From: Candidatus Altimarinota bacterium
GTDB taxonomy: Bacteria > Patescibacteriota > Gracilibacteria > BD1-5 > UBA6164
Assembly (NCBI GenBank): GCA_028689115.1
Contig: JAQTWV010000001.1
Location: 845,539 to 909,538 of the forward strand
Reading direction: 5' to 3'
DNA: 64,000 nt
Position 1 is the first letter of the stretch. Each line of letters begins with the position of its first letter. The position numbers and the translations under genes were made by a program. Below are positions 1 through 64,000 of this stretch, piece after piece. The notes under the pieces are model-generated. The model ran no database searches and was not told the origin of the DNA. It saw nothing but the letters and a program-made list of their open reading frames with translations.

Positions 1-435
1 CTTATCATTATAATAATATATATTTTTTCAATCAGTTTTTATAATGTCTGATTCATCTACTCAAGCAACTTGAGTATTTGTTTTTCAAAAGTCAGAGCTT
101 GATGCAGATCAAGCAACTTGAGAAGTAACCATATCACTTGATAATCAACCTAATGGTGCATCTAAAATTGCTTGTTCATCGATTGACTTATTATAATAAA
201 CTGGTCAATAATTATAAAAACGATCTTTATTATTTTTCCAATATGTTTTTATGTAATCATTCATTACATTTTCCATATTATCACAACTATTAAAAGACTT
301 CAATTTAAAATCTGAAGTCAACGTTTTTACTTCTTGTCATTGTAACTCATCAATAATAGAGTTATCTTCAACTGCTGCATTTACAGAAGAAAAAGTAAAT
401 AAACCTAAAAACAACAATAAAAAATATTTTTTCAT
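1..435 (-). CDS. secreted beta-propeller domain protein (partial, C-terminus off the left edge)
   Basis: The table-25 reading starts at ATG 435 and runs off the window after 145 codons. It begins with a signal peptide (MKKYFLLLFLGLFTFSSVNA) and then a Glu/Asp-rich mature part. Around residues 125-140 it has the motif TNTQVAGVDESDIIKTDG. This strongly resembles the entry motif of the secreted beta-propeller family Pfam PF09826 (consensus near TNvQvxGVDEaDivKtDG). Several of these glycines are TGA codons. It lies downstream of the sigma/anti-sigma pair on the same strand, but a hairpin terminator lies between them. The substrate or partner is unknown; an extracellular adhesion or envelope role is inference. 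Confidence 0.75.
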
Positions 436-504
436 AATATATTTATTAAAAAAATAAAATACTTCAAATATTGAAACGATACTAAAAATAAAAAGTGACA
501 AAAA

Positions 505-533
505 AACCATAAAATTAAAATAATTTTATGGTT
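505..533. terminator. hairpin between anti-sigma gene and beta-propeller gene
   Basis: A perfect 13-bp stem (AACCATAAAATTA pairing with its complement) encloses an AAA loop and is followed by T-rich sequence. It lies just past the stop of the anti-sigma-like gene on the minus strand. Confidence 0.6.
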
Positions 534-538
534 TAATT

Positions 539-1396
539 TTATTTTATTTCCTTAAATTCACAAGTTCAATTTATATAATTACTTGATAAACATTCTTTTT
601 TATTTACTCTACAAATTTGTTCATTTCAAGCTTCATAAATTACTCATAAATTATTCTTACAAAATACTTCAAAAGTATCATAAACAGCTTCTGATTTAAA
701 TAATCTAGAAGATGATAAATCCATCATTGGAGAAGCTCAAATTCAAGTAGAATCAATACTATTTTCAAACTCAGAACTTCAAGAAATTCAATAATCATAA
801 GTTTCTCAAACAGCATCAAGTAAATTACTTATTTCATTATTTTCAACAGATAGATCTGAAGCAACTTGAGTATTAGATTCATCTTTAACATCAACAATTT
901 CATTAGATTTTTTTATAACTGTTGTATTATTATTTCATGTCTTACTATTTTTAGTAGTAGATATATGATTTGAATTTATTTTTATATCTTCATCTTTATT
1001 TAGTTCTAAATTTTCTTTTTCTAAAATAGAATCATCTAAGTTATCATCTAAAACAATATTTTCATCATTATTATAAGTTTTTATATCAACTATCTCTAGA
1101 TTTTTATTAGGGTTTTTTCAATTAAAAAATGTAATATCTTTGAAATAATAAAAAAATCATGCTACCACAAATACAAAACTAAACACAGGTATAGCAAAAA
1201 TTAAAAAATTATTTTTCTTATTTATTTTTAGTGAAATAACTCAGTTAATTCTTGACTTTAGCTTGTTTTTAAAATCATTTGATGCATTAAAAACAGGCTT
1301 ATTATCATTTAAATAATAAACTACTTTTTCAATAACTTCCTTATTTTTTTCAATTTCAGGAAAATTTTCTATCAATTCTTTTAAAAATTTTTTCAT
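539..1396 (-). CDS. anti-sigma-factor-like single-pass membrane protein
   Basis: A 285-residue protein. The N-terminal ~75 residues are charged and presumably cytoplasmic. One hydrophobic segment follows around residues 70-87 (FLIFAIPVFSFVFVVAGFFY), and then a long Asp/Glu/Asn/Ser-rich outer part. Its ATG is only 2 nt past the stop of the ECF sigma factor gene. Such a pair usually encodes a sigma factor and its membrane-bound anti-sigma factor. I see no zinc-binding ZAS motif (H-x3-C-x2-C), so the anti-sigma role rests on topology and gene order. Four cysteines near the C-terminus could form disulfides outside the cell. Confidence 0.5.
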
Positions 1397-1398
1397 TT

Positions 1399-1950
1399 TT
1401 ACAAAATTATTAAAATCATAATTAAAATAAGGAAATTAGCACTTATAACTTTTAATGTTCTACTAACAATTTTTTTACAATTATCAACACTCAATCAAGT
1501 AATTTCAGATATTTCCTTATAAGATAAATCATCCCATATCCTATAAATAAGTATATCTCTATGCTCTTTTTTTATAGTTTTTAAATATCAAAATACTTCT
1601 TTTAATTTATCCTTATTATCTAAATCTTGAGCAAAATCAGAATTAACAGACATTTCTAAATAATCTCAAATATCTAAATTTTCTTTATTTGTCCTATAAA
1701 AATCTATTACTTTATTATAAGCTATCTTGTATAACCAAGCTTTTACAGATGATCATTCTTCAACTCTAAAAGAATTTATATTATTTAAAGCACTCATAAA
1801 AACATCGCTAACAATATCTTCAGCAACCTCCTTATTTGTAGTTTTTAAATAAACAAAATTATATATTTTATCAATATATCTATCATATATTTCTCAGAAA
1901 TAATCTAGGTTTCAACCTAAACATTTTTCCATTAATTTAAGATCATCCAT
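1399..1950 (-). CDS. ECF-type RNA polymerase sigma factor
   Basis: A 183-residue protein with the two-domain layout of sigma-70 family ECF factors. Region 2 is around residues 15-75 (IDKIYNFVYLKTTNKEVAED, then a DVF-SAL-NI-SF-WLYKIAYNKVIDFYR stretch). Region 4 is around residues 105-165 (LIYRIGDDLSYKEISEITG then LSVDNCKKIVSRTLK), a helix-turn-helix for the -35 element. It would direct RNA polymerase to a small regulon, probably in response to an envelope signal sensed by the downstream membrane protein. Four conserved glycines are TGA codons. It has its own hairpin terminator upstream, so it likely starts a transcript. Confidence 0.88.
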
Positions 1951-1983
1951 ACTGCTTAAAACGATAAAAATAAAAAAAGTGAC

Positions 1984-2021
1984 AAAAAAATAATACTATT
2001 TATATATAGTATTATTTTTTT
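1984..2021. terminator. hairpin terminator downstream of rlmH
   Basis: A 16-bp stem (AAAAAAATAATACTAT) with a 6-nt loop, rich in A on one side and T on the other, just beyond the rlmH stop on the minus strand. Confidence 0.7.
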
Positions 2022-2037
2022 AGATTTAATCAATAGA

Positions 2038-2490
2038 TTAATGATGATATTTTACTCATTTTTTTATACAATTTACTCTATAAATTTGTTCTAAAATCAT
2101 CATAATTGCTTGTGCATGTGGAAAAGTCATTGGAGAAAGAGAAATCTTAAAATCAATTAAATCTCAAATCAAATTAAAATCTACTCAATAAGCTCATCAA
2201 ATAATAAAAACTATATCTCAAAATTTCATTTGTTTTTCTTCTACAAACTTAGAAAATTCCATTGTATCCATAGTTTTGCTATCAATATAAAGCAAAACTT
2301 TATATCACTTAGTTTTTTCTAAGTATTTTTTTAATTCTATACTTTCTTCATTAATTATTTCAACAAATTCTTTTCTTTTACTTGGTTTTAATTTAATAAA
2401 TTCTATATCCTTTCAGAGTCTTTTTTGAAATTCTTTTATTGGTTCATCATAATGTTTAAAACTATCAACAAAACTCAATATTTTAATCAT
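2038..2490 (-). CDS. rlmH: 23S rRNA (pseudouridine1915-N3)-methyltransferase RlmH
   Basis: A 150-residue SPOUT-class methyltransferase, close to the family's usual ~155. It has the SAM-binding knot motif FIIGGAYGVDF around residues 95-105, then the diagnostic KISLSPMTFPHAQA and MILEQIYR. The C-terminus ends KKGVKYHH where most members have NHPYH(K/R). It methylates the pseudouridine in helix 69 of 23S rRNA on assembled ribosomes. The GG of the SAM motif is TGA-TGA, so a standard-code reading misses the gene. It starts 5 nt after the lipoprotein gene stop. Confidence 0.93.
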
Positions 2491-2495
2491 AAATA

Positions 2496-2867: not shown

Positions 2868-2937
2868 AATATTTATTTATTATTAAATATAATATATTCT
2901 ATTATTAGAATTTATTTTTAAATTCAAGTTTTTTAAA

Positions 2938-2965
2938 TTGACTTTTATTTTTTTTCATATATAAA
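2938..2965 (+). promoter_or_regulatory. sigma-70-like promoter for the 2999 ORF
   Basis: TTGACT (2938-2943), 16-bp spacer, TATAAA (2960-2965), about 34 nt upstream of the ATG at 2999. Confidence 0.5.
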
Positions 2966-2998
2966 ATAATTACTTTTTCTAACTTTTTTGAGGATGAT

Positions 2999-3657: not shown

Positions 3658-5550
<1,893 letters not shown>

Positions 5551-7148: not shown

Positions 7149-7172
7149 AAGACTAGAATTTTCTAGTCTTTT
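7147..7172. terminator. bidirectional terminator
   Basis: A 12-bp stem AAAAGACTAGAA with a TT loop between the converging hemerythrin and rhodanese genes. Confidence 0.75.
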
Positions 7173-7495
7173 ATTAATTTGTATCAATAATTTTCCCGGT
7201 ATTCTATTCATCAAATGAGATCATAAACATGCTCAAATTTATTTTCTTTCATATAAGCTAAAACACTTTGAGTCCTATTTCAATGAAAACAATAAATAAG
7301 GTATTTTTTTGTTCTATCAAGTGAAGAAATTTGAGAAATAATTTCTGGTTTATAAACATCGTATAAAAAATGTGTTCACTCAATATAACCATAATACTCT
7401 TTTTCTTCTATTGTTCTAAAATCTATTAAAATATATTCAAGAGTTTTTAATTTACTATCAAAATCTTTTGGAAAAAGTCTTCAAATTTCAGCCAT
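7163..7495 (-). CDS. rhodanese-like domain protein
   Basis: A 110-residue single-domain rhodanese. It has the N-terminal LIDFRTIEEKEYYGYIEG strand-turn element. The catalytic loop is CFHGNRT around residues 72-78, a Cys-x4-Arg arrangement with C72 as the sulfur-carrying cysteine. It ends with GGIEYRENYG, the usual W/GG-I motif. It would transfer sulfane sulfur. Three of the glycines around the loop and C-terminus are TGA. It is 15 nt downstream of the RNA methyltransferase gene on the same strand. Confidence 0.85.
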
Positions 7496-15687: not shown

Positions 15688-16851
15688 TTATTTACTATAT
15701 ATATCAGTTAAATTAATTGTTGAATTAAAATTTATTTCTCTACCCTCATTTTTTAATTTTTTTCTAGTTTCCCAAGATGGTTTAATTTTTAGATTAACAA
15801 TAACATATGGAGAAATATTAGTAGATGGATTAGGATTTTTCCAAAAATATTTTGAATCTACATTTGGATATGGATATACTCTAAACTCTGTTACATTTAT
15901 TCCTGTTGGAAAAATTGGCTTCCAATAACTATTACCATCAGAACCAGCAACAACTGAAGTTGTTTCATCAACATTTGTCATTCATGTAAATTGCTTATCA
16001 ATAAGCCAAGTATCTATTAATCAGTCATTTTGTGTAGAATCAACTGAAGTAGCAATATGATCCATTCACCAATCAACACCTTCTAATTTTAAGAATTCTA
16101 CTGTTCATATACATCAACTTCAAGTAATTACATTTGATGCATTGATACTACAAGTTGACGCTGTTGGTTTATTAGGATCAACATTAACATTCCATCTGAT
16201 TAATGTTCTTGTTTTTTTATCTCAACTTATAAGATATAATTCTTTAATATCAGTTCAAGAAGTAAAAGCATTTGGACCATCTCATAAAAATTCATCATCA
16301 TCGTCTCAAATTACCTTTAAATCTGAATCTTCATCTCAAAGATCAGCATCAAAATTACTATTGTAATCTATAAATTGATAAGAATATTCTCAATATCTTT
16401 GTTGAACTCAAGAATAATTATTCACATCTAGATCAGGATTTCAATCATTATCATTAAATGAAGTTACACAACCTGATGTTCACATTTTAGTTCAATTATT
16501 ACTTCTACAATAATAATAACTATTTCAATAAGTTGTAGTTCAAAAAATTCATCATCATCAAAAATTTCAAAATCAACTTGATATATTATAATGTCAACTT
16601 CAAAAAGTAGTTCATAATACATTTCTATTGAAATATTCTTCATAATCAATAGTTCCTCATTCTTTAATTATTTGAAATAACTTTTCACTAAAATAAAAAC
16701 TATCTTTTTGCATATTAGTTTTTTCAATTAGATTGATTTTTCAAATTCCTATTTTTGCAAATGCATCAAATCAAGAAATAACAACTATTGAAACTATAAG
16801 TATTCAAATCATTATTTCAACTAATGTAAATGCTTTATTTTTTAAAATCAT
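15688..16851 (-). CDS. type IV pilin/pseudopilin-like protein
   Basis: A 387-residue protein with a classic class III prepilin start: MILKNKA, then FTLVEIMIGILIVSIVVISG with Glu at +5. The cleavage residue is Ala instead of Gly, as in its neighbour. The mature part is Gly/Tyr/Ser/Trp-rich (including FGNFGGGGIFGTTTYG, encoded largely by TGA) with four cysteines around residues 115-130 and 225-235. It is much larger than standard major pilins, suggesting a minor pilin or an adhesive tip subunit. It is probably co-transcribed with the following pilin and with the small upstream ORF 1 nt away. The pilus motor genes are not in the window. Confidence 0.8.
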
Positions 16852-19937: not shown

Positions 19938-20924
19938 ATGGACAAACAAGAAGCTTTAAACAATGCATTAGCAATGATAGAAAAACAATTTGGGAAATGA
20001 TCTATTATGAAACTATGAGATGAAGGAATGAAACAAAAAGTTGAAACATTTTCTTCATGATCACTTACTTTAGATATAGCTTTATGAGGTTGATATGCTA
20101 AATGAAGAATAGTTGAAATATATGGTCCTGAATCATCAGGTAAAACAACTCTTACTCTTCACGCTATTGCTGAAATACAAAAAGCAGGATGAGTTGCAGC
20201 ATTTATAGATGCTGAACATGCACTAGATCCAGAATACGCTAGAAAGATTTGAGTAGATACTGATAATTTACTTATTTCTCAACCAGATTATGGTGAACAA
20301 GCATTAGAAATAACTGAAAAATTAGTTAATTCATGAGCTGTTGATTTGATAGTTGTAGATTCTGTTGCTGCTCTTACTCCAAAAGCAGAAATAGAATGAG
20401 AAATGTGAGATTCACATATGTGACTACAAGCTAGACTTATGAGTCAAGCACTTAGAAAAATAACTTGAGCAATAAATAGAACAAATTGTACTGTTATATT
20501 TATCAATCAAATAAGAATGAAGATTTGAATAATGTTTGGTAGTCCTGAAACTACAACTTGAGGTAATGCTTTAAAATTTTATGCGTCTCAAAGATTAGAT
20601 ATAAGAAGAAAAGCTAAAATAGAAACTTGAGCTTGAATGGATAAAGAAGTAACAGGAAGTGAAACTGTAGTTAAAGTAATAAAAAATAAAATTGCTGCTC
20701 CATTTAAAGAAGCAAGTTTTGATGTAATGTACAATGAAGGTATTTCAAAAAATGGTGAAATCATTGATATAGGATCTCAAACTTGAGTAATTAAAAAAGC
20801 ATGAGCATTTTACTCTTACTGAGAAACTAAGCTATGACAATGAAAAGAAAATGCTAAAAATTTCTTAAAAGAAAATCCAGCACTTGCAGTTGAAATAGAA
20901 CAAGTTATAAAAAATAGTTTATAA
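19938..20924 (+). CDS. recA: recombinase RecA
   Basis: A 328-residue protein. Walker A is [10 protein letters not shown] (residues ~55-64). It has [13 protein letters not shown], the Walker B strand [20 protein letters not shown] and loop L2 with [20 protein letters not shown], then [10 protein letters not shown]. It is full-length apart from a short C-terminal tail. It forms filaments on single-stranded DNA for homologous recombination. About two dozen of its glycines are TGA, making it one of the densest users of the reassigned codon here. Single-gene transcript with its own promoter and terminator. Confidence 0.99.
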
Positions 20925-31202: not shown

Positions 31203-31937
31203 TTATTCAAAACCTGCTTCTATTATTTTTTCAATCAACTCTTTTCCTCATTCTCTCTCTACTAATCAATCTCTCAAAACATAAACCTTGTCTACATCTA
31301 TATATTCCAAGATCTTGAAATAATGAGTTATTATAATAAGACTATTTTTTTCACTACTTAGATTTTTTAACATAGAAGCGACTGCTCTAAAAGCATCTAA
31401 ATCAAGTCCACTATCTATTTCATCAAGTATTATGTATTTTGGTCCAATAAGTTTCATTTGAAGAATTTCTATTTTTCTCTTTTCTCATCAACTAAAACCT
31501 ACATTTAAATCTCTATCTAAAAATCCCTCATTTATATGTAGCTCAGTTAAATACTTAGAAATATGTCTTTTAAAAATAAATGGAGAGATATCTTTTTGTT
31601 CTGGATTTATATTTTTTAAACTTATATTATAAATAATTCTAAGAAATTCACTTAATTTTATCCCTTGTATTTCTGGAACATTTTGAAATGATAAAAATAA
31701 TCCTGCCTTACTTCTCTCTTCAGCATTTAGCGATAATAAATCTTTTCAATCAAGAGAAACACTTCATGAAATATAGTTATAATTTGGATGTCACATTAAA
31801 AATGAAGAAAGTGTAGATTTACCACTTCAATTTTTTCAAAGTAAACAATAATTCTTTCAAAGTTCAAAATTTAAACTTATTCACTTCAATATTTCCTTTT
31901 CTCAAACTCAAACTTTTAAATTATCAATTTTTATCAT
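31203..31937 (-). CDS. sufC: Fe-S assembly ATPase SufC
   Basis: A 244-residue ABC-type ATPase. Walker A is CLLGKNGSGKSTLSSFLM. The signature is LNVGFSGGEKRKIEILQMKL, Walker B is YIILDEIDSGLDLDAFRAVA, and the switch His is in LIIITHYFKILEYI. It powers SufBCD conformational change. It is first in the operon, with sufB, the carrier and sufD following. The SGG of the signature uses TGA. Confidence 0.97.
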
Positions 31938-34447: not shown

Positions 34448-34460
34448 GCTGGTCTAATTT
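34430..34460. terminator. bidirectional terminator
   Basis: A 13-bp stem AAATTAGACCAGC with a TGTAA loop. It contains the stop of the coiled-coil gene and that of the converging yvcK. Confidence 0.85.
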
Positions 34461-35434
34461 TTTTTAATTATGTCTTTTATTACTTGTCATATCTTATCAT
34501 AAGAGTGTCTTACAAAAGTATTTTCATGAAGCAAATCTGCTTCTATAACTTCATACTTTTTCCCTTCAAAAACATCATGACTTTTTACTTTTACTGGTTT
34601 TTTCTTTTCTAAACTCTTGTATTTATCTGCCAATTTTTCTGAAATATATCAATTATTTACTACAAAATAATCTATAACTCAAACTCCTAGATATTTTTCA
34701 ATTGTATCTATAAAATCTATAGCTTCAAAATCAGTAGTTTCACCTGGTTTTGTCATAAGATTGCAAAAATATACAACCTTGGCTTTTTTATTTTTAACAA
34801 TTGCTTCTTTTATACCTTTTACAAGTAAATTTGGTATAACAGAAGTATACAAATCTCAAAATGATAACAATATATAATCAGCTTTTTCTAAAGCACTAAC
34901 AGCTTTTGGATTAGCATTTACTTCTGGAGTTAGATATGCAGTTTTTATAGGAGAACTAGTTTCATCTAATTTTAAATCTATATTTGTTTCTCACTCTACT
35001 ATATTTCAATCTTGCAATTCTACATTTAAATGTGATAATTCCAAAGTTACAGGAATAACTCTTCATTTCACTTTAAACATTTTAGCAACTTGCTTAAGTC
35101 ATTTATCAAAATTTCAAGTTATTTGTGACATTGCAGTTATTATAAGATTTCACAAATTATGACCTCATACACTACATCATTTATCATATCTATAATCAAA
35201 AAGTTGTTTTACAATTTCATGTTCTCTAGATAAAGCCATAATAGCTCTTCTTACATCTCCTGGTGGAAGCATATTAAACTCTTCTCTCAAAATACCAGTT
35301 GAGCCTCCACTATCACTCATAGAAATAATAGCAGAAATATTGTAATCATCATTATCTCTTATACTAGACAATAGTCCATAACTTCAATTTCATCATCATA
35401 TGGTAACTACATTTATATTCTTTGATTTAGACAT
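34454..35434 (-). CDS. YvcK/CofD-like gluconeogenesis-morphogenesis factor
   Basis: A 326-residue protein. The nucleotide-binding start is VVTIGGGNGSYGLLSSIRDN. It has ISMSDSGGSTGILREEFNML, PPGDVRRAIMALS, then GHNLGNLIITAMSQITGNFD and the C-terminal VVYFCNLMTKPGETTDFEA. The YvcK family binds UDP-sugars and links cell-wall synthesis with central metabolism and shape. The GGG near the N-terminus is TGA-TGA-TGA. It is usually next to rapZ and whiA, which are absent here. Confidence 0.93.
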
Positions 35435-35490
35435 AATTTTTCAATTTTTCAAATAAATTTCATACATTTTTAAACTCAAAGAATTATATA

Positions 35491-35526
35491 AAAAAAACAA
35501 AGAAAATCTAGTTTTTCTTTGTTTTT
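35491..35526 (-). terminator. terminator downstream of alaS
   Basis: AAAAACAAAGAAAA pairs with TTTTTCTTTGTTTTT across a TCTAG loop, 10 nt past the alaS stop. Confidence 0.7.
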
Positions 35527-35535
35527 ATGTAATAA

Positions 35536-37356
35536 TTAATCTTTAATTAAAACAGCTTTTATTCTTCTAACTCATCTAGAACTTGCTTCTTCTTTTAAAA
35601 TCTTAAATTTTCACATAGTTTTAGAGTTTTCTACATGTGGTCATCAACATAATTCTTTTGAATATACTTTTCCATCAGCTCAAACCATAGAATAAACTTT
35701 TACTATTTCAGGATATTTTTCCCAAAAACTTCATTCAACTCAAGAAGTTCTTGCTTCTTCTTTATCCATATTAGTCATAATAGTTTCAAAACCTGCATTT
35801 ATAGCTTCATTTACATAAGCTTCAACTTTATCTAGAATTTCTTTTTCAACTTTTTCATCATTAGAAAAATCAAATCTAAGTCTTTCTGGAGTTATATTAC
35901 TACCTTTTTGATGAACATTTTCTCAAAGATATTTTCTAAGACCAGCTAAAAGTAAATGTGTTGCACTATGCAAACCTACAGTTTCTTCTCAACTATCAGC
36001 TAATCATCATTTAAATTTTCAAGCACTTGCTGTTCTTGATTTTTCTTGATGTTCAGTATATGCTTTTTTAAATCATTCAGTGTCAACAGTTAATCAAACT
36101 TCCATAGCTAACTCCCCTGTCATTTCAAGAGGAAAACCATAAGTATCATAAAGTTTAAATGCTTTTTCTCATGATATGATTTCTACTTTTTTTCCAGTTC
36201 TTTCAAAAGCTATTTGAAATCCTGAAACTAATTTTTCAAATTCTTTTAATCATTTTTCAAGAGTTTCTCAAAATTGTTTTTCTTCTCTAAGTATTTCAGT
36301 AACTATTTCTTCTCTTTTTGTTATCATATGAGGATAAGCAACACCTAGTTTATCTATAACAGTATTTGCAACCTTACTCAAAAATTCTCACTTAAATCAA
36401 AGCTTATAAGCTTGTCTAATAGCAATTCTTATAAGTCTTCTAAGTACATAACCTTGGTCAACATTTGCAGGAATAACTCAGTCACTTATCATAACAGTAG
36501 CAGTTCTAGAATGGTCTGCTATTATTCTAATAGATCTCATAGTTTCAGCATTGTATGGAACTCAAATTTCTTTTGAAATTGAAGCAATAATCTCACTAAA
36601 AATATCAGTATTATAAACCGTTTTTTCTCAATTTAGAGTTGCAGTAATTCTTTCAAGTCACATACCAGTATCTACGTTTTGAGCTGGTAATTTAACTAAA
36701 CTTCCATCTGGTAGTTTATTATATTCCATAAATACATTGTTCCAGATTTCCATCCAATTTTTTTCGTCTGATCAAACATTGCTTCAAGCAGGAGGTAAAT
36801 CACTTTCTCAAACATAGTAAAATATTTCAGTATCTGGACCACAAGGACCAGTATCACCTGCCGCCCACCAATTATCTTTTTTTGGAAGATAAGATATTCT
36901 ATCTTTAGGCATACCTACACTTTGCCAAATACTTGCAGATTCTTCATCTCTTGGAGCATCTGCATCTCATTCAAAAACAGTTACAGCTATTTTTCTAGGA
37001 TCAAGAGCAAGCCAATCTTTGCTTGTCAAAAACTCCCAAGAATAAGCAATACTATCTTTTTTAAAATAATCTCAAAGTGACCAATTTCAAAGCATTTCAA
37101 AAAATGTAAGATGACTATTATCACCTACTTCTTCTATATCTCAAGTTCTAATACATTTTTGACTATCAGATAATCTTTTTCAAAGTGGATGAGTTTCTCA
37201 TAAAAGATATGGAACCAAAGGTTGCATACCTGCAGTATTAAATAAAACAGTTGGATCATTTTCAGGAACTACTGGAGCACTAGGAATTATTGCATGTCAT
37301 TTACTTTGGAAAAAATCAAGGTATTTTTGTCTTATATCAGCACTATTATATTGCAT
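35536..37356 (-). CDS. alaS: alanyl-tRNA synthetase, short form
   Basis: A 606-residue protein. The class II catalytic core has [60 protein letters not shown] and [13 protein letters not shown]. The editing (SAD) domain has [17 protein letters not shown] and ends [20 protein letters not shown]. It stops right after the SAD domain and lacks the ~250-residue C-terminal C-Ala/DHHA1 region of the E. coli enzyme (876 aa). HxxxH and CxxxH editing metal ligands are kept. Confidence 0.95.
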
Positions 37357-37494: not shown

Positions 37495-39777
37495 ATGAAT
37501 CCTCAAGAAATATCATTTGAAAGATACAATTCTATACAAAGAGAAATTTGAAAACATAACGATATTCAAAGTGCTCTTAAAGAAGCTTATGAATTAATAA
37601 AATGAATAACTATAGAAAAAGAAATAAATAAAAAAAATCCTACTAAATACAATCAACTAGAAGAACTAGAAAAAAAATTCATAAAAGAATATATTGATTT
37701 GGAAAATTCTATAAAAGATGCAATTAAAGATGATAGAACTATATCTCAAAAAGAGAGAGAAAAAATTATGTTTGAATTATCTGATATAGTAGATTTGGCA
37801 CAAAAAAACTGAATAAAAGAACATAAAAATCTTTGGAGTAAATTATGAGATGTAAAAAGATCAATTTGATGAACTGAGGAAAAAGTAGATACTAGTAGCG
37901 CCAGAACTGAAGCAATTAAATTAAATGAAAAAAAAGAATTATTAAATAAATATTTTAAAAAAGAAAAATTTTCAGATGTTGAGTTAAAGAAATTATTAAC
38001 TATTTCTAATGAAGAAAGAAAAATTAAATGAGAAAATAAAACATGAAATCTAGCTTGATACGCAGTTAGATGGATTAATTTAGATACAACATCTGCAGAC
38101 ATATTTTCTGAACAAGAAGACGTAATAAGAACAAACCAATTTCAAGATGATATTATAAAAAGAATATGATTAGAAAAATGATACAATGCATCTTGAGATA
38201 TCCATGCCTTTCATCAAAGTTTATGAAACTATATAACAAATGCTCCTATTGTTGAAAGTGCTTTAAAAACAAATAATGTTCAAAATTTATGAAATAAAGC
38301 ATTAAAAAACTATTTATGATATTTGGAAAGTAAATGAGAATTAGCTCCTAAAAATTTAAAAATAAAATTCTGAGAAGAAAAAACTCAAGAAATTTTTAAC
38401 TTTATAAAAAGAAATGAACCTGATAAAATAACTTGAGAAAAATTTTGAACTGATTTTGTGAATAAAGTTTTAGATTTATTTGATAAAGCTTTAAAAGCTT
38501 TAAAAGAAAAAATAGATTGATTATTTACAAAATTAACGACATCTAAAGACTTAAAAGAATTTAAAAGTAATTTAGAAGAAATTAAAAATTATGATAAAGA
38601 AGAAACAGATGCTCTACTTAAAAAATTTGATGAAGAAATTAAAAATAAAGAATCTGAATTAATGAAAAAATTTATATGACCAATTAATGCAAAAATTAAA
38701 AATGAAAATGAAGCTGAAAAAATAGCAAGAGAAATATTAAATAAAATAAAAAATAATTTAGATCCAAAAAAATTATGAGAAGCATTTAGTATAATTGAAA
38801 AATTTAATAAAGATTATGATGCAAAATTTGATAGTAAAAATACAATTCAAGAAACAATTAATGTATCTACATTAGAAAATGAAAGAGATATATTAAAATC
38901 TGTTAGTAATGCAAATATAGCTAAAAAATTAGCAGAAGAAGCAAGAAAAAACTGAAATAAAGAAGAAGCTAAAAAGCAAGAAGAAGAAGCTAAAAAGCAA
39001 GAAAAAGCTTATCATTCACAAATGATAAGAAAAAAATGAATTGAAACTTCTGGTAAAATATTATCTCAAACAAGTGAAAAACAAGCAAGAGATATATGAA
39101 CTTGAAAAATTGATTATAATGAGCATTTAGAAAAAATATTAAGTAAAGATGAAAACTTAAGAAAAGAAATAGATAATTATGAGAAACAAAAAAAAGAAGT
39201 TGAAGAAAAACAAGAAAATAATTCAAATGATAAAAAAGAAGACAATCTTACAACTAAAAATAATACAAATATAGAATCATATTCTTATGACTCAACTTCT
39301 TGAACAGTACAAATAAAATGAGAAAATTGAGTTGAACACATAATTTTAACTCAAGAAGAACAAAAAAAAGTAAAAAATAATCCTGAAATAATAGAAAAAA
39401 TAATTGATTTCTATTCTATATTAAGAGACTTATGATTAAGTGAGTTATGGAAAGAAAAAGAAAAAATTTTTACTGCTATTTCTAATAAAATGTGAATTTG
39501 ATTTAATAATAAATCTAATTACTTAAGTGAAAATGAGATAAAAATATTTTTAAATGCCATTCTGAAATCTGTTTGACAAAAAGAAATTGATAAAACAAAA
39601 GTATTAGTTGAATTTAAAAACATTTTTTCAAATAAAAATGATTTACAAATTATTTGAAATGGTTATAACGATAATTTACTTCAAAAATGAAGTTCAAAAA
39701 TCTCTGAACAATTTTTACAAAAATATGCTAATTGAAAAATATCTTTTGATATCGAATGATTTAGTAAAAATATATAA
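37495..39777 (+). CDS. giant protein A of unknown function with a shared C-terminal module
   Basis: A 760-residue protein with no signal peptide and no membrane helix. It is mostly Lys/Glu/Asn-rich and helical. A coiled coil with a short repeat (KEEAKKQEEEAKKQEK) lies around residues 485-502. An Asn/Lys-rich linker follows, then a C-terminal module of about 160 residues starting near SYSYDSTSGTVQIKG. It includes LTQEEQKKVKNNPEIIEKII, LSENEIKIFLNAILKSVG and NLLQKGSSKISEQF, and ends ISFDIEGFSKNI. The same module ends the next gene. It uses TGA for nearly all glycines, so it is adapted to this genome. No known family recognised. Confidence 0.75.
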
Positions 39778-39782
39778 CAAAT

Positions 39783-42500
39783 ATGCCTGAAATAAACATA
39801 GATAAAATAGTCAATACAAGTATGATTGAAAACCGTGAATGAGAAAAAGATAGCCTTATAAATGATATAAAGAAGGCTAATTTTTTTATTGATTATTTCA
39901 GAAAAAATCAAGATAGTAAATATAGCGAGGTAAAATGATTATATGATAATCTAACTCTAGAATTAAACAATGCAATAAGTGATAATAAAATAGAAACAAA
40001 AAAAGAATTAGAAGGTTTAAAACAATCACTAAATATAGAAACTGAATATGAAAAAATAATAAATATAACTAGAAAATTAGACTCTATATTTGAAAATAAC
40101 ACAAAAATAAGTACTGAGACATTGGAAAGACTATCAAATGATAAACTTGATAATGACTCTAAGAAAAAAATATTTTTTGAAATTAGAAATAACTTACCTT
40201 TAATTTCTCATATAAAAGATCCTGAAATAATTAAGTCTTTTTTTGAATTTTATGAATGAACTAATTTAAGTGAATATTATAAACACTTATCTAATTCCAT
40301 AATTAATTTTCCATTAATAACAAATAGTTATATAAAAAATACATCTCAAATTAATATGAATTTAATTCCAGATGAATATTTTACATATAAAATAGAATGA
40401 CATGATAATATATCTGATATAACAAAAATACTAATTAATTGAAATCAAAATAAAATTGAATCTAGAGTTAGGTCACTTTTTTTAAGATTAAATTGAAATA
40501 TTGGAAATATTAAATTAGTATTAAATGTACTACTAAATAATGAAAAAACAAAGCTAATTATTGAAAATAATCTACCTAAAGAACTTATAGAAAACAAAGA
40601 AACAATTCAATTTTTAAAAGAAAATTGAATTGTAATTCAAAAAGAAAATATAGAAAATCCAAGTAAAAAATTTAATGAATTATCAAAACAAATATTAGAT
40701 TTAAGTATAAATCAAAAAGATTATGATTTATTGGTAAATAAATATATAGATGAACTTGACTCTTTTATTATTAGAAATTGAGAATATGATAAAGAATTAT
40801 TGGCAAAAATAATAAATAAAAATTATTCTAAGTTTGAAAGATTTTCTTGCATAAATTATAACAAAGAAATTGCTAAAGATTTAGTTGAAATTGATCATTC
40901 AATATTTATGAATTTATCAACAGAATTAAGAAAAGATGAAAAGTTAATTAAGGCGTCAATTAAAAATCAAGATGATTATGCATGGGCATATTTTATAAAT
41001 ATAGATTCAATTGATACTCTAATTAATAGTTATAAAATACTTATGGATATCTGAATTAATTCAAATGATATACTAAATTTTCCAAATTTTTCAAATGCAA
41101 TAAAATCATATGCAAATAAAGATAATATATGGGCATATAATTCAAAATGAGATATAGGAGGTTGAAATATATTAAAAGAATTAGAAAATAAATGAAAAAA
41201 TCAAGATAAATTTTTTTCTGAATCATTAAAAGATAATAAATTAATATTAAATGATATAGTTAAAAATGATTTTTTTACTATAATAAATAGTGAAATAAAA
41301 AATGAAACAAAATCTAGAGAATTTTTAGATATATTATATAAAAATAAAGAATTTGATATTGATACATTTAAAGAAAATTATAATAAGCTTTTATTATTAT
41401 GCTCTTGAAATGAAAAAATACTTAAAAATATATTTAATTATTTATTAGATAAACAAGCAGAAGTATATAATAACCCTGAAATTTTAAAAAAGATAACAAA
41501 AAGTAGTATTGAAAATAGTAATTTTGAAATATGAAAAATTAAAATAATATTGAATGAAAATTCTAAAATTAGAGAATTTTTAAATATAGAAATAAATAAT
41601 GATAAAGAAGAAATAAATTTAAATACAAATTTATTAAATTCTAATTTTAAAGATTTTTCAAAAAATCATCCAACAAAAAATAAAAATGAAATTATTAATT
41701 TATATTTATCAGAAATCTGATTATCAGATGATCTTTCATATGATGAATGAAAATTAAGAGAGTTATTATGATGAATACTACTAATTAATTTTGAAAAAAT
41801 AAAATCGAAAACAATTGCTAATCAAAAAGAAACAGCTTATGATTATATTTCATGAAAAATTACAAGAGAAGAATACAATAAAATAATTGACAAGTCATAT
41901 AATGAAAATTTAAAAAAAGAATGACTTCCAAGTAATAAAAACGAGGAAGAAAAAGTTGAAGATAATAAAAACTGAGAGAAAATAAGTAATGTAAATAATA
42001 TAGAAAATTACGATTCTAATTCTTGAATAATTACACTAAACTGAATAAATTGAGTTGAAAAAATAAACCTAAACCAAGAAGAACAAGATCAAATAAAAAA
42101 TAATCCTGAAATAAAAGATAAAATAATTAATTTTTACTCTACTTTAAAGGATTTATGAATAGATAATTTATGGATACATAGAGAAAATATATTTAAAGTT
42201 ATTTCAAATAAAAAATGAATTTGATTTGATGCAAAAACAGATTATCTAGGTGAAAATGAAATAATTATATTTTTAAACTCTATTTTAAAATCAGTTTGAA
42301 TGGAAGAAATTCCTCTTGGTTTTAATTTAGAAAATGTTAAAAATAAATTTATGCAATTAAATAATAAACAAGTTTTATGAAATTGATATTGAGATAATTT
42401 ACTTCAAAAATGAAGTTCAAAAATATCTGAAATCTTTATAAAAAAATATGTTAATTGAAAAATATCTTTTGATAATGAATGATTTAGTAAAAATATATAA
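39783..42500 (+). CDS. giant protein B, C-terminal paralogue of giant protein A
   Basis: A 905-residue protein that starts 5 nt after giant protein A stops. The long helical, Asn/Lys/Ile-rich N-terminal part differs from A. The last ~160 residues match A closely: NLNQEEQDQIKNNPEIKDKI, ISNKKGIGFDAKTDYL, GENEIIIFLNSILKSVG, NLLQKGSSKISEIFIKKY, ISFDNEGFSKNI. There is no signal peptide. It ends at a GC-rich terminator, so A and B form one operon. Function unknown; the large size and duplicated tail could suit a structural or effector role, which is inference. Confidence 0.75.

Positions 42501-42528: not shown

Positions 42529-42530
<2 letters not shown>
42502..42530. terminator. bidirectional terminator between giant protein B and gyrA
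   Basis: AAAAAAACTGCCC-TGC-GGGCAGTTTTTTT, a perfect 13-bp stem. Confidence 0.9.
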
Positions 42531-45075
<2,545 letters not shown>

Positions 45076-53068: not shown

Positions 53069-54049
53069 TTAGTCATCACCTAAAAGCTTTAAACCTCTCT
53101 CACCAAGAGATGTTCTAATTTCTGTCATTGCTTTCTTACCAAATCATTTGATTGAAGAAAGTTTTGTTTCAGTACATTTAGTTAACTTTTCTATTGAAAG
53201 GATATCTCAATTAATTAAAGCGTTTAATGTTCTAGGAGATAATCACATAATTTCAATTGGAGTATAAGTTTCCTTTTCTAACTCTTCTTGAACTTCTTCT
53301 TTTTCTCTAGATATTAATTCTTTTACATTAGAAATAAATTGTCATTCTACTTGTAAAGATTCTTCATTGAAAATTGAAAAGTAAGAATTTAACATATCTC
53401 AAGAAAATTTTAATGCATTTACTGGAGATATAGATCAATCTGTAACTATTGTCATTTCTAAAGAGTCTAAGTTAATCATTTCTCAAAATCTAGCTTTTTC
53501 TATATCGTATTTTACATTCAATACAGGAGAAAAGTTAGTATCAAGTAATAAAACTTCAACGTCTTCTTCTTTTTCTAATAATTCTTCTTGAGTTAAATAT
53601 CAAACTCATTTTTCAACTCTAATTTCAATATCTAATTCTAAACCATCTTGGTCTATTTCTGTAATATATAAGTCTTTGTTAATTATTTCAATTCATCCAG
53701 AAGCTTTTATATCAGCAGCAGTAACTTTTCAAGATTTTGTTTTATTTAATCTTAACCATTCAACTCAGATTTCATTTTTTGATAATACTAAACCTTTTAA
53801 GTTTAACATTATATCAATAATTGAATCTTTTACTCATGGAAGAGTTGAGTATTCATGATTAACTCATTTTACTTTTATTCAAGTTACTTTTGTTCATGGG
53901 ATTGAAGACAAAAGTATTCTTCTTAGCGAATTACCCAAAGTTACACCATACCCTTTTGGTAAAGGTCCTACTATGAAAGATGAAGCATTGTTTTCTAAAT
54001 CTGTTTGAGTAATTTTAGGAACACCTATTGTATTATGAATAATGTGCAT
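53069..54049 (-). CDS. rpoA: RNA polymerase alpha subunit
   Basis: A 326-residue protein. The N-terminal assembly domain has [20 protein letters not shown] and ILLSSIPGTKVTGIKVKGVN. The C-terminal domain has [20 protein letters not shown] and [20 protein letters not shown], the DNA- and activator-binding HhH fold. It sits in the classic order rpsM-rpsK-rpsD-rpoA-rplQ. Confidence 0.97.
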
Positions 54050-54090
54050 ATTATTAAATTGATTACAAAAATAACATAAATTCCTATTTA

Positions 54091-54714
54091 TTATTTTGAG
54101 TAAAACTCAACTATTTTTTGGATATCAATTATTTGATCAAAATCTTCTTTTTCTGGCATTGCTTTGATTGTAATTGTTAATTTTTTTGAATCAACATCAA
54201 TCCATTTACAAGCAGTTACTTTACCTTTATTTGATTTAGAAAATTCTTCTAATTCTTCTAATAAAGTTTTGTATAAAGCAGATTCTTTTAATTTATCTCT
54301 TAATGCAATAACATCTCATACTTTTACAGCAATAGATGGAACATCAACTTTTACACCATTTAATGTAAAATGTGCATGATTTACGAATTGTCTAGATTGA
54401 ATTCTTGTTCTAGCAAAATTTGCTCTGTAAACAACGTTATCTAGTCTTAATTCTAAAAATTGTAACATTTTATCTCAAGTAGTTCCTGTAGTAGTTGATT
54501 GTTGAGCTTTTTTAAAATAAGAAGCGAATTGTTTTTCTGATAATCAAAACATTCTTTTAGCCATTTGTTTTTTTCTCAGTTGAGTTCAGAACTCACTTGT
54601 TTTTCTACTTCTTAGAGGAGCTCTTTTTGAGTCAGTTAAATCATATTTTTCAGTACCGAATAGATTTACACCTTCTCTTCTACAAAGTTTTTTCTTTGGT
54701 CAAGTATACCTCAT
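54091..54714 (-). CDS. rpsD: 30S ribosomal protein uS4
   Basis: A 207-residue protein. It starts [20 protein letters not shown] and has [40 protein letters not shown] and the S4 domain [20 protein letters not shown]. The N-terminus has a single Cys, so no zinc-knuckle form. S4 nucleates 30S assembly. Confidence 0.97.
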
Positions 54715-55630: not shown

Positions 55631-55747
55631 TTATCATTGTCTTTGTTTGTGTTTTGGATCAACACTACATATTACTCTGACAACTCCATTTCTTCTAACA
55701 ATTTTACATTTGTCGCAAATTGGTTTTACAGATGGTCTTACTTTCAT
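55631..55747 (-). CDS. rpmJ: 50S ribosomal protein bL36
   Basis: A 38-residue protein: [20 protein letters not shown], then [18 protein letters not shown]. It is the zinc-binding form, with C-x2-C, C and H ligands. The terminal glycine is TGA followed by TAA, a compact demonstration of the code. It sits between infA and rpsM. Confidence 0.95.
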
Positions 55748-56592: not shown

Positions 56593-59109
56593 TTATTTTT
56601 GTATTTCAATTTTATAGATTTCTAATTCATCTCCATTTTCTATTTCTACGTTTGAAACAAATTTTATTCAACATTCTGTAGGTCCTTCAACTTCTTTAAC
56701 TTCAAGTGTTCATTGTTTTAATGATTCTATTTTTCAAGTTCAAATCATTTTCTTTTTTCTTATAACTCTTGCCATTGTATTTGCTTCAATTCTATTTTCT
56801 GGTTGTACAACAAGTCATAAAATCATAAATTTTTTATCAGTGAAAAATATTCAACCAACTTTAGCTTTTCATAATATAACTTCAACTTCTTTTGGATCAA
56901 GCATTCAAGTAACTATTTTTTCTATCTTATCTGTTATATGATAGATTATATCACTAGAAATATATTCAACTCAAGCAGATTCTAGAGTAGACTTAGCAGT
57001 TGGTAAAACTCAAACACTAAATCAAACTAAGATTGCATCACTTCATTTCCCCATAAGAATATCTCATTCTGTAATTGAACCAACTCAACTAAGAATTATT
57101 GAAACAGTAGTTTCTGGAGTAGATAATTTAACTAATGCATTTTTTATAGCTTCAAGTGAACCATTTGTATCAGCCTTTAATATTATCTTTAATTGTTTTA
57201 AATTTCCTGATTTTATCTTTGACATAAGTAATTCTAAACCTGAGCTTCAAGCTTTCTTTTGTTTTTCAAGAAGAGTTTTATATTCTATTGCTTTTGATTT
57301 AGCTATATCAGGAGTATTTACAACTTGTAAAATATCTCAACCATCTACAACTCTATCAAGTCAAACAATTAAAACAGGTTCTCCTGGTTTAGCAAATTTA
57401 ACCTTAGTATTTTGATAATTTTTTAAAATTTTAACCTTACCATAAGAATCTTGACAAACTATATTGTCTCAAGAATTTATAGTTCATGTATTTATTAATA
57501 CTGTAGCAACTGGTCATAGATTTCAATCTAAGTGTGATTCTATAACTGTAGCAACTCAATTTCTATCTGGATTAGCTTTAAGTTCTTTCATTTCAGCAAC
57601 AAGCAAGATAATTTCAAGTAAATCATCTATTCAAAAACCTGTATGAGCAGAAACTGGAACCATAGGAACATCTCCTCCCCAATCTTCAGCTAAAAGTCCA
57701 TGCTCAGCTAATTGTCATTTTACATGATCTGGATTAGCTCAAACCTTATCCATCTTATTTATTGCAACAATTACAGGAATATTAGCTTCACGAGCGTGAC
57801 TAATACTTTCAATAGTTTGTGGCTTAACTCATTCATCAGCGGCAACAACTAAGATAGCAATATCAGTTGATTTTGCTCATCTAGCTCTCATAACTGTAAA
57901 TGCCTCATGACCTGGAGTATCAAGAAATGTAATATTTCATTGTGGTAATTCAACTTGATATGCTCAAATACTTTGAGTTATTCAACCTGCTTCTCAAGCA
58001 GCAATTTTTGCACTTCTTATATAATCAAGAAGTGATGTTTTACCATGATCAACATGTCACATTATAGAAACAACTGGAGATCTAGGAATAAGTTTTGATT
58101 GATCATCTTCAGTTAAAAATGAAGAAATATCTCATAAAACGATATCTTCAACTGATGCTCAAAGTGAATTTTCTCTTTCTAATTTTATACCAAAAGCATC
58201 TCAAATTATAGATGCAGTTTCAAAATCTACCTTTGAATTTATAGTAACCATCATTCAATTCTTCATAAACTCAGCAATAAGCTTAGGAAGGATTACTCAT
58301 AGTTTTTCAGATAATTCTTTTACACTTAAAAAATCTCATACTAAAATTGTTTCTCATACTCTTTCAACTAGATTTTGTTTTATATCTTCTGCTTTCTTTT
58401 CTTCTTTTTTTAATTTTTGTAATTTATTTGATCTAGTAAAAGTAAGATCCTCATCTCAAGAAAATCTAATTTTTCCTCTTGTTTTACCAAAAGTATTTAA
58501 TTTTGGTTTTTTAGAGTCTTCATCATCTTTTGTTTTTTGTTTACCTTTTCAAGCTCAAGGATGTTTATTATTTGAAAAAGTTTTCTTAAATCATGAATCA
58601 TTTGATTGAAAATGACTTGAACCACCTTTAAAATCACCACCTTGTTGAGATGGATTTGTCGATTTAAAATCTGGTCTTGTATTTTCTGATCTATTTGTAT
58701 TGTTATTATTTGCTCAAGTTGATGTATTTGGTCTTTGTTGTTGTCTTTGATTTGGTCAACTTGTTGATCATTGATTTTGAGACTTATTATTATTGTATGG
58801 TGGTCTATTTGTAGGTTTAGCAGTAGTAGTTTCTTTTCTATCTCATCTTTTGATAACTTCTATTTTTTGAACTATATTTTTTGATTTTTTTTGTTCATTT
58901 TGATTATTTTGTTTAATAGAAGCGTTTTTAATATCATTTAATTTTTTTTCTTCTTTAATTGCAGCATCAGCTTTGATTTCTGCAGCCTTTCTAACAACAA
59001 TTTTTTTCTTTGTTGCTACTATTGGTTTTTTGACAGGTTCTTTTTTATTTTCGCTATCGTTCGGGTTTATTTGTGAATAATAATCATCTACTATTTTTTT
59101 GTCTGACAT
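56593..59109 (-). CDS. infB: translation initiation factor IF-2
   Basis: An 838-residue protein. The N-terminal ~290 residues are a low-complexity Lys/Asn/Gln/Ser-rich extension. The conserved IF2_N and G domain follow: [20 protein letters not shown] (G1), [33 protein letters not shown] (G3), VAINKMDKVGANPDHV (G4). Then come domains II-IV with VKIILKADTNGSLEAIKNAL and ECGIKFVSNVEIENGDELEI. It brings initiator tRNA to the 30S subunit. nusA and rbfA are not adjacent. Confidence 0.97.
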
Positions 59110-59753: not shown

Positions 59754-60878
59754 ATGCTTAAAAAAATTATTATTATAGTTTTAATAACTATTTGATTATT
59801 CACTTTTTTTAAAGTAAATGAACAAAATTATAAAAAACATATAGAAATAAAAAACGAAATAATTAATCATCCTGAAAATTTACCAAAAAAAGAAATCGCA
59901 AAAGCTACTTCTTTTTGATTTGAAAATTTAAAAGCAGATTTTTATCGGATTGAAACTATTCAATATATATGAGCAAATGCTTTTCATAGTGAATATAAAA
60001 AATACCTATATGCTATACTTGATTTAGTTACTGAACTAAATCCATATTTTGAAAAACCATATATTGTTGGGCAATTATTATTACCTTCATATCAAAAAGA
60101 ATATGAATTTATAAGTGATTCTGAACAACAATGACATACGAATCAAGCAGTTGAGTTATGATTAAAATGAGTAAAAAATTTCTGTGATCCTGAAAAAATA
60201 GAATTAATAGATAAAGAAAATGATTTATTAAAAATATGGAATAATGAAGAATTTAAAAACCCATGTTTAAGTTATAAAGTACCATATTATTTAGCTTATG
60301 TTTATTATTCATATAAAAATGATCCTATAACATCAGCAAAATATTACAAGATATCAAGTGCTAATACTGATTCTCCAGAATGAGCTAAAACTATGGCTGC
60401 AATTATGCAATGAAAATGATGAAATAGAGAAAAATCATATTTTATGTTTCTAAATCTAGCTAAGTTTATAGAGCCTGAAAATGAAGTTTGTAATATACTT
60501 GGAAATGAATTAGAAAATATATGAATTGGTACTTTTATAACAAAAAAGTTAAATCTAGATTGAAAAATATTAAAAAGTGTAGAAGATTTTAGAAAAAAAG
60601 CATTTATAGATGTAAAACAAGAAGAGTTAACAGATGACTCAAAATGTACAAATTATATAAATAAATCTATCCGTGAATTAAATCTATATTATATAGAAAA
60701 AAATAATGAGAGATATCTTAAAGACAAAGGTGAAAATGCCTTTGATGCTAAAATATTATTTGATAATTGATATCTAGATTACTTACCTACTGACTTCCAA
60801 CAAAGTGAAGATTATTGAATAATATACAAATTCAATTATGACACAAATCATTATGATTATGATATGTGAAGATACTAA
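59754..60878 (+). CDS. membrane-anchored TPR-like protein
   Basis: A 374-residue protein. The N-terminal anchor helix is IIIIVLITIGLFTFFKV. The rest is all-helical with TPR-like spacing (AILDLVTELNPYFEKPYIVG, YYLAYVYYSYKNDPITSAKY, TMAAIMQGKGGNREKSYFMF). It contains paired cysteines. It is 11 nt downstream of the Jag-like gene and probably co-transcribed. It may be an envelope assembly protein; I recognise no named family. Confidence 0.65.
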
Positions 60879-60903
60879 AAATAAGCCTTCGGCTTATTTT
60901 TTT
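60877..60903 (+). terminator. terminator after the TPR-like gene
   Basis: AATAAGCC-TTC-GGCTTATT stem with a stable TTCG-type loop and T7. Confidence 0.85.
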
Positions 60904-60981
60904 GTTAACTAAAATTGATATTTAATAATTTTTACATATAATCCTGAACATTAAAATTTATTTAATTATTGTAACGATTTT

Positions 60982-62277: not shown

Positions 62278-62278
62278 T

Positions 62279-62317
62279 AAAAAAAATATTAGAATTTAAA
62301 ATTCTAATATTTTTTTT
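62279..62317 (+). terminator. trigger-factor terminator
   Basis: A long inverted repeat AATATTAGAATTT/AAATTCTAATATT with T8. Confidence 0.8.
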
Positions 62318-62369
62318 GTGGGTTTAATTATATGTACTTGAATTTGTATTTATTTTATTCTTTTTTAAA

Positions 62370-62708
62370 TTATTGAGATGATAATATAAAAAAGAATAAT
62401 GAAAATGTTAAACTTACAATTATATAAATTGTACTGAATATGTATCAAATTTTATATTTTTCATATTTATTAAATATAAAATTAATTATTATAAATAATA
62501 AAATATTATATATTGGCATTAAAAAATAATTTGTTAATGGATTTAATATAAATATTAGTAAAAATACTCAAGAAGATGATATAAATAATGCATCTATATA
62601 ACTTCCTAAATTATTTTTATAATAAAAAAATATGGAATTTAAGAAAAAAAATATAATAAGTATAAATATATTTATGCTTATATATTTATTTTTAAAGGTA
62701 TTTTTCAT
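62370..62708 (-). CDS. small polytopic membrane protein
   Basis: A 112-residue protein with four predicted helices: IFILIIFFFLNSIFFYY, ISSSGVFLLIFILNPL, YNILLFIIINFIF, and FSTIYIIVSLTFSLFFFIL. It has TGA glycines within the helices. It lies 12 nt downstream of the DUF2283 gene and may be co-transcribed. No family recognised; very AT-rich. Confidence 0.55.
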
Positions 62709-62720
62709 AGTTATAATTTT

Positions 62721-62930
62721 TTATTTAAAAAATTTTGATGCAGGAATAAATTCAATTCAAATAATTTCATTTTTTTCAGAAAAATCAATATTTATCATAG
62801 AATTATTTTCATCTAATAATGATGAAGAATATGAAATTTTATTATTTTTATTTTCTTTATAAATATAAAGATATGCTGCATTTGCAACTTCATCAATATG
62901 AAGTTCAGAATTTAAATTAATTATTTTCAT
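62721..62930 (-). CDS. DUF2283 family protein
   Basis: A 69-residue protein. It has the DUF2283 pattern: start, EVANAAYLYIYKENKNNKIS, INIDFSEKNEIIGIEFIPAS. This family often pairs with DUF4258, and the two have been proposed as a toxin-antitoxin-like unit. Here the DUF4258 partner lies directly upstream but is broken. The glycine of IIGIEF is TGA. Confidence 0.75.
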
Positions 62931-62969
62931 ATAGTTTTTTAAAGGTTATCAATATAATTTTTTGATGGT

Positions 62970-63185
62970 TTAATTACAGTTGTAATTTTTTTCATACTCA
63001 AACAAATTATTATTTTCTTTTAAATAATATCATGTTTTTTAAAATCATTCATGAATATATTCAAAAATTTCTCATTCATTAATGGTTCTTTTTAATTCAT
63101 CTATAGAAATTCCTCTTTCTTTTATTCTTTTTAATGCGTGTTCAGAAATATTATTTATTAAATTATCTGCTTTACTAGCTTTTTT
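62970..63185 (-). pseudogene. DUF4258-like gene, broken
   Basis: The frame reads KKASKADNLINNISEHALKR, IKERGISIDELKRTINEGEI, FEYIHEGF, then an in-frame TAA (63039). It continues in the same frame as KTGYYLKENNNLFEYEKNYN to a second TAA at 62970. A TAG lies directly before the first codon shown and no ATG, GTG or TTG start is visible. HALKRIKERGIS is typical of DUF4258 domains. It is most likely a decayed partner of the DUF2283 gene. Confidence 0.6.
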
Positions 63186-63211
63186 CTATTACATTATAAT
63201 AAATATGATTT

Positions 63212-64000
63212 TTAATCTTTTAAAATGGAATAGGTAGTGGTAAATTCCATTTTAAAAGATCCCTTATTATTTTCATAATACTTATATATTGCACTAACTA
63301 AAAAATAATGTGGAGCTTGAATATCAAGAAAAGTTCTATTATTTTCTTGTATTTTTAAATCTCTAAAGATTTTCTTCCTTAAAATATCAATTTTTTTAGT
63401 AAACAAATCTTTTTTACATCTTTTTTCTAATTGAATTAATTTAAAAAAATCTGTTGAGATATCATCTATTCCAATTATTCTAAACTCAGGCTCAAATTCA
63501 AAATCAACCATTAATCCCAGGGTGTTTTGAAATAAATTATAATATTTTTCATTCCAATTATTTCCTTTTCCATGATAGTTATGGTTACATGAACTACAAC
63601 AAGGAAATAAGTTCATTTCATTTATATAAAGTAAAGGAAATTCAGACTTTGGAAGTAAATGATCAATTTCAAAGTCCAGCAATTCAAAATCTTCTTTTGA
63701 ATCACAATATGGACAAATACAATGTTCTTGATCTTCAAAAAAAATCTTCTTAAAAATCATTTTACTAAATATTCATTCATCTAAACCAGACCAATAAGAT
63801 TCAGAAAAAATTATTTTTTCATAAATAAATTCTAATAAATTTATTATTTCATCTGATATTTCTTTCTTTGAAACGTTAAAAATACTTTTTCTGATTTCCT
63901 CATCTTGTAACAAACTAATTTTTAGAGATTTTTTTGCATCTTTCTGTGAAATATTTGAGATTAAAGTAATAAAATGTTCCTTGTTGGTTCTTAGTTTTTC
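63212..64000 (-). CDS. HNH endonuclease (partial, N-terminus off the right edge)
   Basis: 263 codons are visible and the start lies beyond the window. An HNH nuclease core: CICPYCDSKEDF (zinc pair), EIDHLLPKSEFPLLYINEMN (the Asp-His active-site pair) and LFPCCSSCNHNYHGKGNNWN (second Cys pair and final H/N). The N-terminal ~80 residues are helical. It resembles stand-alone HNH proteins of defence or mobile elements (PtuB-like IDH-x-x-PKS motif), but a specific system cannot be named. One TGA glycine (DEGIF) joins the two parts. Confidence 0.8.

Follow-up and report, generated by a model that had tools for sequence, protein, structure and literature searches.

UGA encodes glycine and CGG appears to encode tryptophan in the genome of a probable Gracilibacterium

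We analyzed a 64,000-nucleotide stretch of DNA (hereafter, the window; C3:845539-909538) from the 1.23 Mb draft genome of an uncultured bacterium; the draft consists of 4 contigs, is 80% complete, and has a guanine-cytosine (GC) content of approximately 23%. In the genes of this window, UGA was confirmed to be read as glycine, and the window very probably comes from a Gracilibacterium. The nearest named RecA was that of a Candidatus Gracilibacteria metagenome-assembled genome (89% identity), and the remaining 79 kept loci showed identities of 71% or less. In addition, alignments and tRNA sequences suggest that CGG specifies tryptophan in the window's genome. The original prediction, made from the nucleotide letters, had assigned NCBI translation table 25 to the whole window. 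Its glycine assignment of UGA was borne out, whereas table 25 proved incomplete because of the apparent meaning of CGG. We are highly confident that the best joint explanation is a Gracilibacterium in which UGA is glycine throughout and whose code in effect combines table 25 with CGG as tryptophan.

In-frame TGA was found in nearly every gene of the window. Translation with table 25 gave 87 open reading frames (ORFs) of at least 100 amino acids, compared with 13 with table 11. Two gene sets were used, namely 59 model genes and a separate hand-made list of 57 ORFs. TGA occurred in 57 of the 59 model genes and accounted for 743 of their 1144 glycine codons; the corresponding count for the hand-listed ORFs was 770 of 1136. 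Genome-wide, 952 genes (331,162 codons) were modelled from the stretches of the genome that were read, and TGA constituted 16,056 of their 22,063 glycine codons. In the window model genes, TGA made up 4.4% of the codons in frame 0, and the two alternative frames had shares of 1.3% and 6.2%, indicating that TGA is not avoided in frame. The hand-listed ORFs ended with TAA (46) or TAG (11), as follows from how the frames were built. TGA had been said to occupy invariant glycines of well-known motifs, and it was indeed located there (small g, TGA) in IgIDLg of DnaK, in SgSLTLD and ALgGgYA of RecA, and in the RlmH, SufC, and YvcK motifs given in Table 1.

To assign amino acids to codons, TGA, CGG, and CGA were masked as X, and the modelled genes were aligned with the frames of approximately 200 kb of Escherichia coli MG1655, a standard-code reference whose stretches were picked for conserved genes. 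This comparison matched 88 genes and 27,131 codons. TGA faced glycine at 742 of 1283 sites (background glycine, 8.1%), and the log-likelihood (lnL) of glycine was 1118 units above that of the next amino acid. For the 18 window genes included, the count was 141 of 229 (background, 8%) with a lead of 228 units. When RecA was compared with 79 named standard-code RecAs, its 22 TGA codons faced 1612 aligned residues, of which 1421 were glycine; 13 of the 22 positions were glycine in all references, and at two (positions 233 and 295) the commonest residue was not glycine. The alignment of DnaK with its best Protein Data Bank (PDB) chain, also a DnaK (7kzi), placed 16 of 18 aligned X residues opposite glycine by eye; the other two faced Thr and Asp, and three further TGA codons lay outside the alignment. 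The TGA codons of GyrA were covered as part of the pooled E. coli comparison. TGG faced tryptophan at 64 of 127 sites in E. coli. These results supported the claims that TGA falls at conserved glycines of unrelated proteins and that TGG retains its standard meaning. Glycine at UGA is thus correct for this genome but already known: it has been published for Gracilibacteria, as the original prediction stated, and the proteome data of the BD1-5/SN-2 chemostat bacterium (PMC4032931) contain 97 peptides that match only with UGA as glycine, 3 that match only with tryptophan, and 0 that match only with stop.

We then examined the decoding machinery. ARAGORN, run on 30 tRNA loci of the window's genome, reported one tRNA with the anticodon UCA outside the window (C3:723287-723365) and labelled it tRNA-SeC. 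This tRNA is 79 nt long and lacks a long variable arm. Judged by glycine identity elements taken from the methods section of PMC8629427, its G1:C72, C2:G71, G3:C70, and U73 were those of the genome's own tRNA-Gly-UCC. The UCA-anticodon tRNA that a glycine reading of UGA calls for was present, with predicted glycine identity. Across 60 related genomes, the window's own included, in which this tRNA, tRNA-CCG, and release factors were counted, tRNA-UCA was found in 52, and 9 genomes from 7 genera had exactly the same sequence. Approximately 150 bp downstream of tRNA-Gly(UCA), its last 21 nt occur again (L028, about 1325-1348), a second match seen in the window's genome alone of the 60, which looks like an integration-site duplication. 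A further tRNA-like gene (L030, 1501-1601; Rfam 42.8 bits) has extra anticodon-loop bases, and ARAGORN gave no tRNA there.

RF1 recognizes UAA and UAG. A single match to the release factor family PF00472 was found in the window's genome, and it scored as release factor 1 (RF1): 469 bits with the prfA model (cut-off 423, passed) and 279 bits with the prfB model (cut-off 370, failed). The expected lack of prfB therefore agreed with what the draft genome contains, where the sole detected release factor is RF1 by these cut-offs. In the RF1 gene itself, residues 221 and 224 are encoded by TGA, and residue 224 is the second glycine of the GGQ motif. Among the 60 genomes, 54 had release factor matches, 53 of them exactly one; the six genomes with no match are drafts of 78-87% completeness. 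The genome with two genes (G020; G020:C153:10152-10478, L122) is a 2.7 Mb, 500-contig draft, and one of the two has no TGA in its matched part; this perhaps reflects contamination.

The modelled genes of the window's genome contain 66 CGG codons. These faced tryptophan at three of five sites in E. coli (Ala and Gln at the other two) and at three of four informative sites in the related genome G024 (Phe at the other), with six more sites carrying CGG in both genomes. They corresponded to TGG at 10 of 11 informative sites in G022 (Ala at the other; three more CGG in both) and at seven of nine in G045 (Ala and Gly at the others); the site sets of the four comparisons overlap. The CGG codons of G022 themselves faced tryptophan at three of four informative sites. 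The tRNA with the anticodon CCG has A1:U72 and G73, as does the tRNA-Trp of the same genome. tRNA-CCG was detected in 25 of the 60 genomes in 26 copies, and all 25 full-length copies had these two features. Within the window, the 57 listed ORFs contain two CGG codons (Table 1). The one in the rhodanese-like ORF belongs to no gene of the gene model, and its context resembles a rhodanese GGxxxW motif; the sole PDB match has Asp at this position, right at the border of the alignment, and is uninformative. A giant ORF of 4248 amino acids elsewhere in the genome (L077, 1261-14007) carries four CGG codons, which correspond to three TGG and one CGG in G022 and to three TGG and one GCG in G045.

Other readings of these codons were weighed. 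With UGA as tryptophan (table 4), as in Mycoplasma, the frames of the window would be open to the same degree as with glycine, and the three tryptophan peptides in the proteome data mentioned above, against 97 for glycine, would fit. This reading was rejected, and we regard it as exceedingly improbable, for it is refuted by the E. coli, RecA, and DnaK alignments, where TGA faced glycine and not tryptophan; furthermore, U73 and C2:G71 of tRNA-UCA are unlike the tryptophan-type G73. Had UGA remained a stop codon, in-frame TGA would represent assembly errors, pseudogenes, or programmed readthrough, including selenocysteine insertion, for which the tRNA-SeC label given by ARAGORN could be cited. 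The short variable arm of this tRNA and the absence of SelA matches in the draft genome, in a search that was positive in the E. coli and M. jannaschii controls, argue against selenocysteine. The presence of TGA in nearly all window genes and the lack of a detected RF2 in the draft genome are likewise contrary to termination, and homology continued with at least 20 aligned residues beyond 1049 of the 1093 TGA codons within the E. coli alignments of the genome stretches read. UGA as stop and selenocysteine insertion were accordingly rejected, their probability being vanishingly small.

The alternative for CGG is that it still encodes arginine and aligned with tryptophan by chance. The informative sites are few (5, 11, 9, and 4) and overlapping, ARAGORN names the CCG tRNA tRNA-Arg from its anticodon, and CGG is arginine in G045, a member of a sister family (52 Arg of 157). 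However, arginine was opposite none of the aligned CGG sites in E. coli, G022, G045, or G024, and its lnL fell below that of tryptophan by 67 units (G022) and 54 units (G045). The G73 and A1:U72 of the CCG tRNA also differ from tRNA-Arg-GCG and -UCU of the same genome, which have G1:C72 and A73, and from tRNA-Arg-CCU, which has A73 by eye. Arginine is therefore very unlikely at CGG. Several points nevertheless weigh against the preferred code of table 25 plus CGG as tryptophan. Glycine was less frequent opposite TGA than opposite GGN, both in E. coli (58% vs 74-83%) and in RecA (88% vs 93%), meaning that the glycines encoded by TGA lie, on average, at sites of lower conservation; the meaning of UGA is not in doubt despite this. 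The CGG sites are few, and two of the five aligned with E. coli do not face tryptophan. RF2 and tRNA-UCG were not found in the window's genome, a draft in which absence alone is no proof, and the charging of all tRNAs described here is a prediction from their sequences.

In contrast to CGG, CGA has nearly disappeared from the window's genome, with 6 codons in the modelled genes against 66 of CGG, although base composition would favor CGA. None of the six fell in the alignments with E. coli, G022, G045, or G024. In G022, CGA was arginine at 23 of 43 sites, and in G045 at 192 of 410. Neither tRNA-UCG nor tRNA-ACG was found in the single-contig G022, in searches that were not exhaustive, as one of them missed a known tRNA-CCG. 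Among 48 genomes of the family, 7 carried an arginine-type full-length tRNA-UCG (at least 82% identity to that of G031), and no tRNA-CCG match was obtained in G017, G021, and G031, the three of these that were searched for it. A different tRNA-UCG was found in G024 (L340, 1486-1561), G032 (L339, 707-782), and G014 (L345, 1486-1561); it has A73 and G3:U70, the pair that marks alanine identity, and shares its first four acceptor pairs with tRNA-Ala from the window's genome.

In G024, the alignments suggest that arginine is no longer the meaning of CGA. Arginine faced CGA of G024 at 2 of 45 sites in the genes of the window's genome (46 lnL units under the best amino acid), 3 of 40 in G022, 2 of 10 in G045, and 0 of 3 in E. 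coli. Relative to the background of unconstrained sites, lnL values were -5.5 for Ser, -8.7 for Ala, and -51.3 for Arg against the window's genome, and -9.3 for Ala, -13.8 for Ser, and -30.0 for Arg against G022; no single amino acid outscored the background. Small residues (A, S, G, V, T, C; a set chosen after the data had been seen) occupied 24 of the 45 sites against 31% expected (p 0.0015), and their excess gave p 0.02 to 0.04 in three other, overlapping settings. Serine led alanine by 3.2 units against the window's genome and alanine led serine by 5.4 against G022, resulting in a tie over the sum of four references. Only with a mixture model was one amino acid favored, by 2.0 to 3.7 units, with alanine best in three of four settings; against G022, however, Gln came within 0.1 to 0.5 units, and Arg gained 0.5 to 1.1. 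In a control with 53 ordinary codons, each subsampled to 45 sites 200 times, 8 of 10,600 calls were wrong and none of them was alanine. Thus, CGA may encode alanine in G024, as predicted from its tRNA-UCG, while the alignment does not separate alanine from serine or from unconstrained sites. CGA as alanine in bacteria was not found in print in the open-licence literature, partly limited to 2021 or 2022 onward.

Among the tRNA-CCG copies (L124-L149), the 25 full-length ones, read by eye, have an anticodon arm that is longer by one pair position. Directly adjoining the 7-nt loop, this arm has A.C in 17, C:G in 4, and U.G in 4. According to a 2026 study (PMC13092985), all tRNA-CCG of Absconditabacterales have 5-bp stems, and 4-bp stems are argued to let C34 read A. 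G022 has the A.C mismatch form at the base of the stem, yet its CGA codons align with arginine and not with tryptophan, a pattern that speaks against misreading of CGA by its tRNA-CCG. This may bear on the extended-superwobble idea of that study, the comparison being loose in that the experiments described there used stems opened at the top.

The following course of events would account for the code. GlyRS would charge the tRNA with the anticodon UCA, loss of RF2 would have freed UGA from a competitor, and mutation pressure toward AT (23% GC) would then have raised UGA to the main glycine codon. Tryptophan would have captured CGG through the tRNA with the anticodon CCG, A1:U72, and G73; CGA has all but disappeared, and no matching tRNA was found. 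The genome resembles NCBI table 25 (SR1/Absconditabacteria and Gracilibacteria) in UGA as glycine, UAA and UAG as stops, UGG as tryptophan, tRNA-Gly-UCA, and a single detected RF1-type factor, and differs from it in the apparent tryptophan at CGG and the near absence of CGA. In the code described by Shulgina and Eddy (2021, PMC8629427), CGG is tryptophan in Absconditabacteria and is predicted to be so in some Gracilibacteria. The Absconditabacteria code shares with the present genome UGA as glycine, CGG as tryptophan, low GC, and tRNA-GCG for CGU and CGC. CGA is also tryptophan in that code, whereas it has nearly vanished here, aligns with arginine in G022, and aligns with neither arginine nor tryptophan in G024.

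Table 1 Positions of genes and codons in the window; small g denotes glycine encoded by TGA.
Feature	Position	Strand	Remarks
rlmH-like	2038..2490	-	IIggAYg; NCBIfam RlmH models all under cut-off, best E 9.3e-19
dnaK	3658..5550	+	21 in-frame TGA; PF00012, E 2.9e-248
CGG codon, possibly Trp	7196..7198	-	Codon 100 of rhodanese-like ORF 7163-7495; context GG-I-E-Y-CGG
recA	19938..20924	+	22 in-frame TGA; PF00154
CGA codon	29085..29087	-	Only one in the 57 ORFs (codon count); codon 87 of SufBD-like ORF 28662-29345
sufC	31203..31937	-	SggEK; TIGR01978 over cut-off
yvcK-like	34454..35500	-	gggNgS; TIGR01826 over cut-off
alaS	35536..37356	-	33 in-frame TGA; NF002436 over cut-off
gyrA	42529..45075	-	37 in-frame TGA; NF004043 over cut-off
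rpoA	53069..54205	-	21 in-frame TGA; PF01000, PF01193, PF03118
bL36	55724-55744		Located in window
infB	56593..59109	-	47 in-frame TGA; PF11987, PF00009
CGG codon, read as Trp	59946..59948	+	Codon 65 of ORF 59754-60878; TGG in G022

Besides the genes in Table 1, two adjoining large proteins of 760 and 905 amino acids are encoded at 37495-42500; neither has a Pfam family over the cut-off, and the second shows a weak DUF4116 match. A protein of 387 amino acids at 15688-16851 with 31 in-frame TGA carries a type IV pilin-like N-terminal methylation motif (PF07963). In practice, the genes of the window need to be called with UGA as glycine and CGG read as tryptophan.

For the window's family, we tentatively propose, at somewhat less than even probability, that the CGN arginine box is being dismantled codon by codon: CGG has become tryptophan in G022, G024, and the genome of the window, while CGA is arginine in G022, near-extinct in the window's genome, and newly alanine through tRNA-UCG in a pair of sister genera, one with G024 and G032 and the other with G014. 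Because the tRNAs for UGA and CGA coexist with tRNAs that give UGG and CGG another meaning, U34 has to be kept from wobbling onto the codon that ends in G during decoding. If the proposal is true, G024 would have three reassigned codons (UGA as glycine, CGG as tryptophan, and CGA as alanine), which goes beyond the published codes. The family offers a natural series in which to follow the transfer of sense codons from one amino acid to another.

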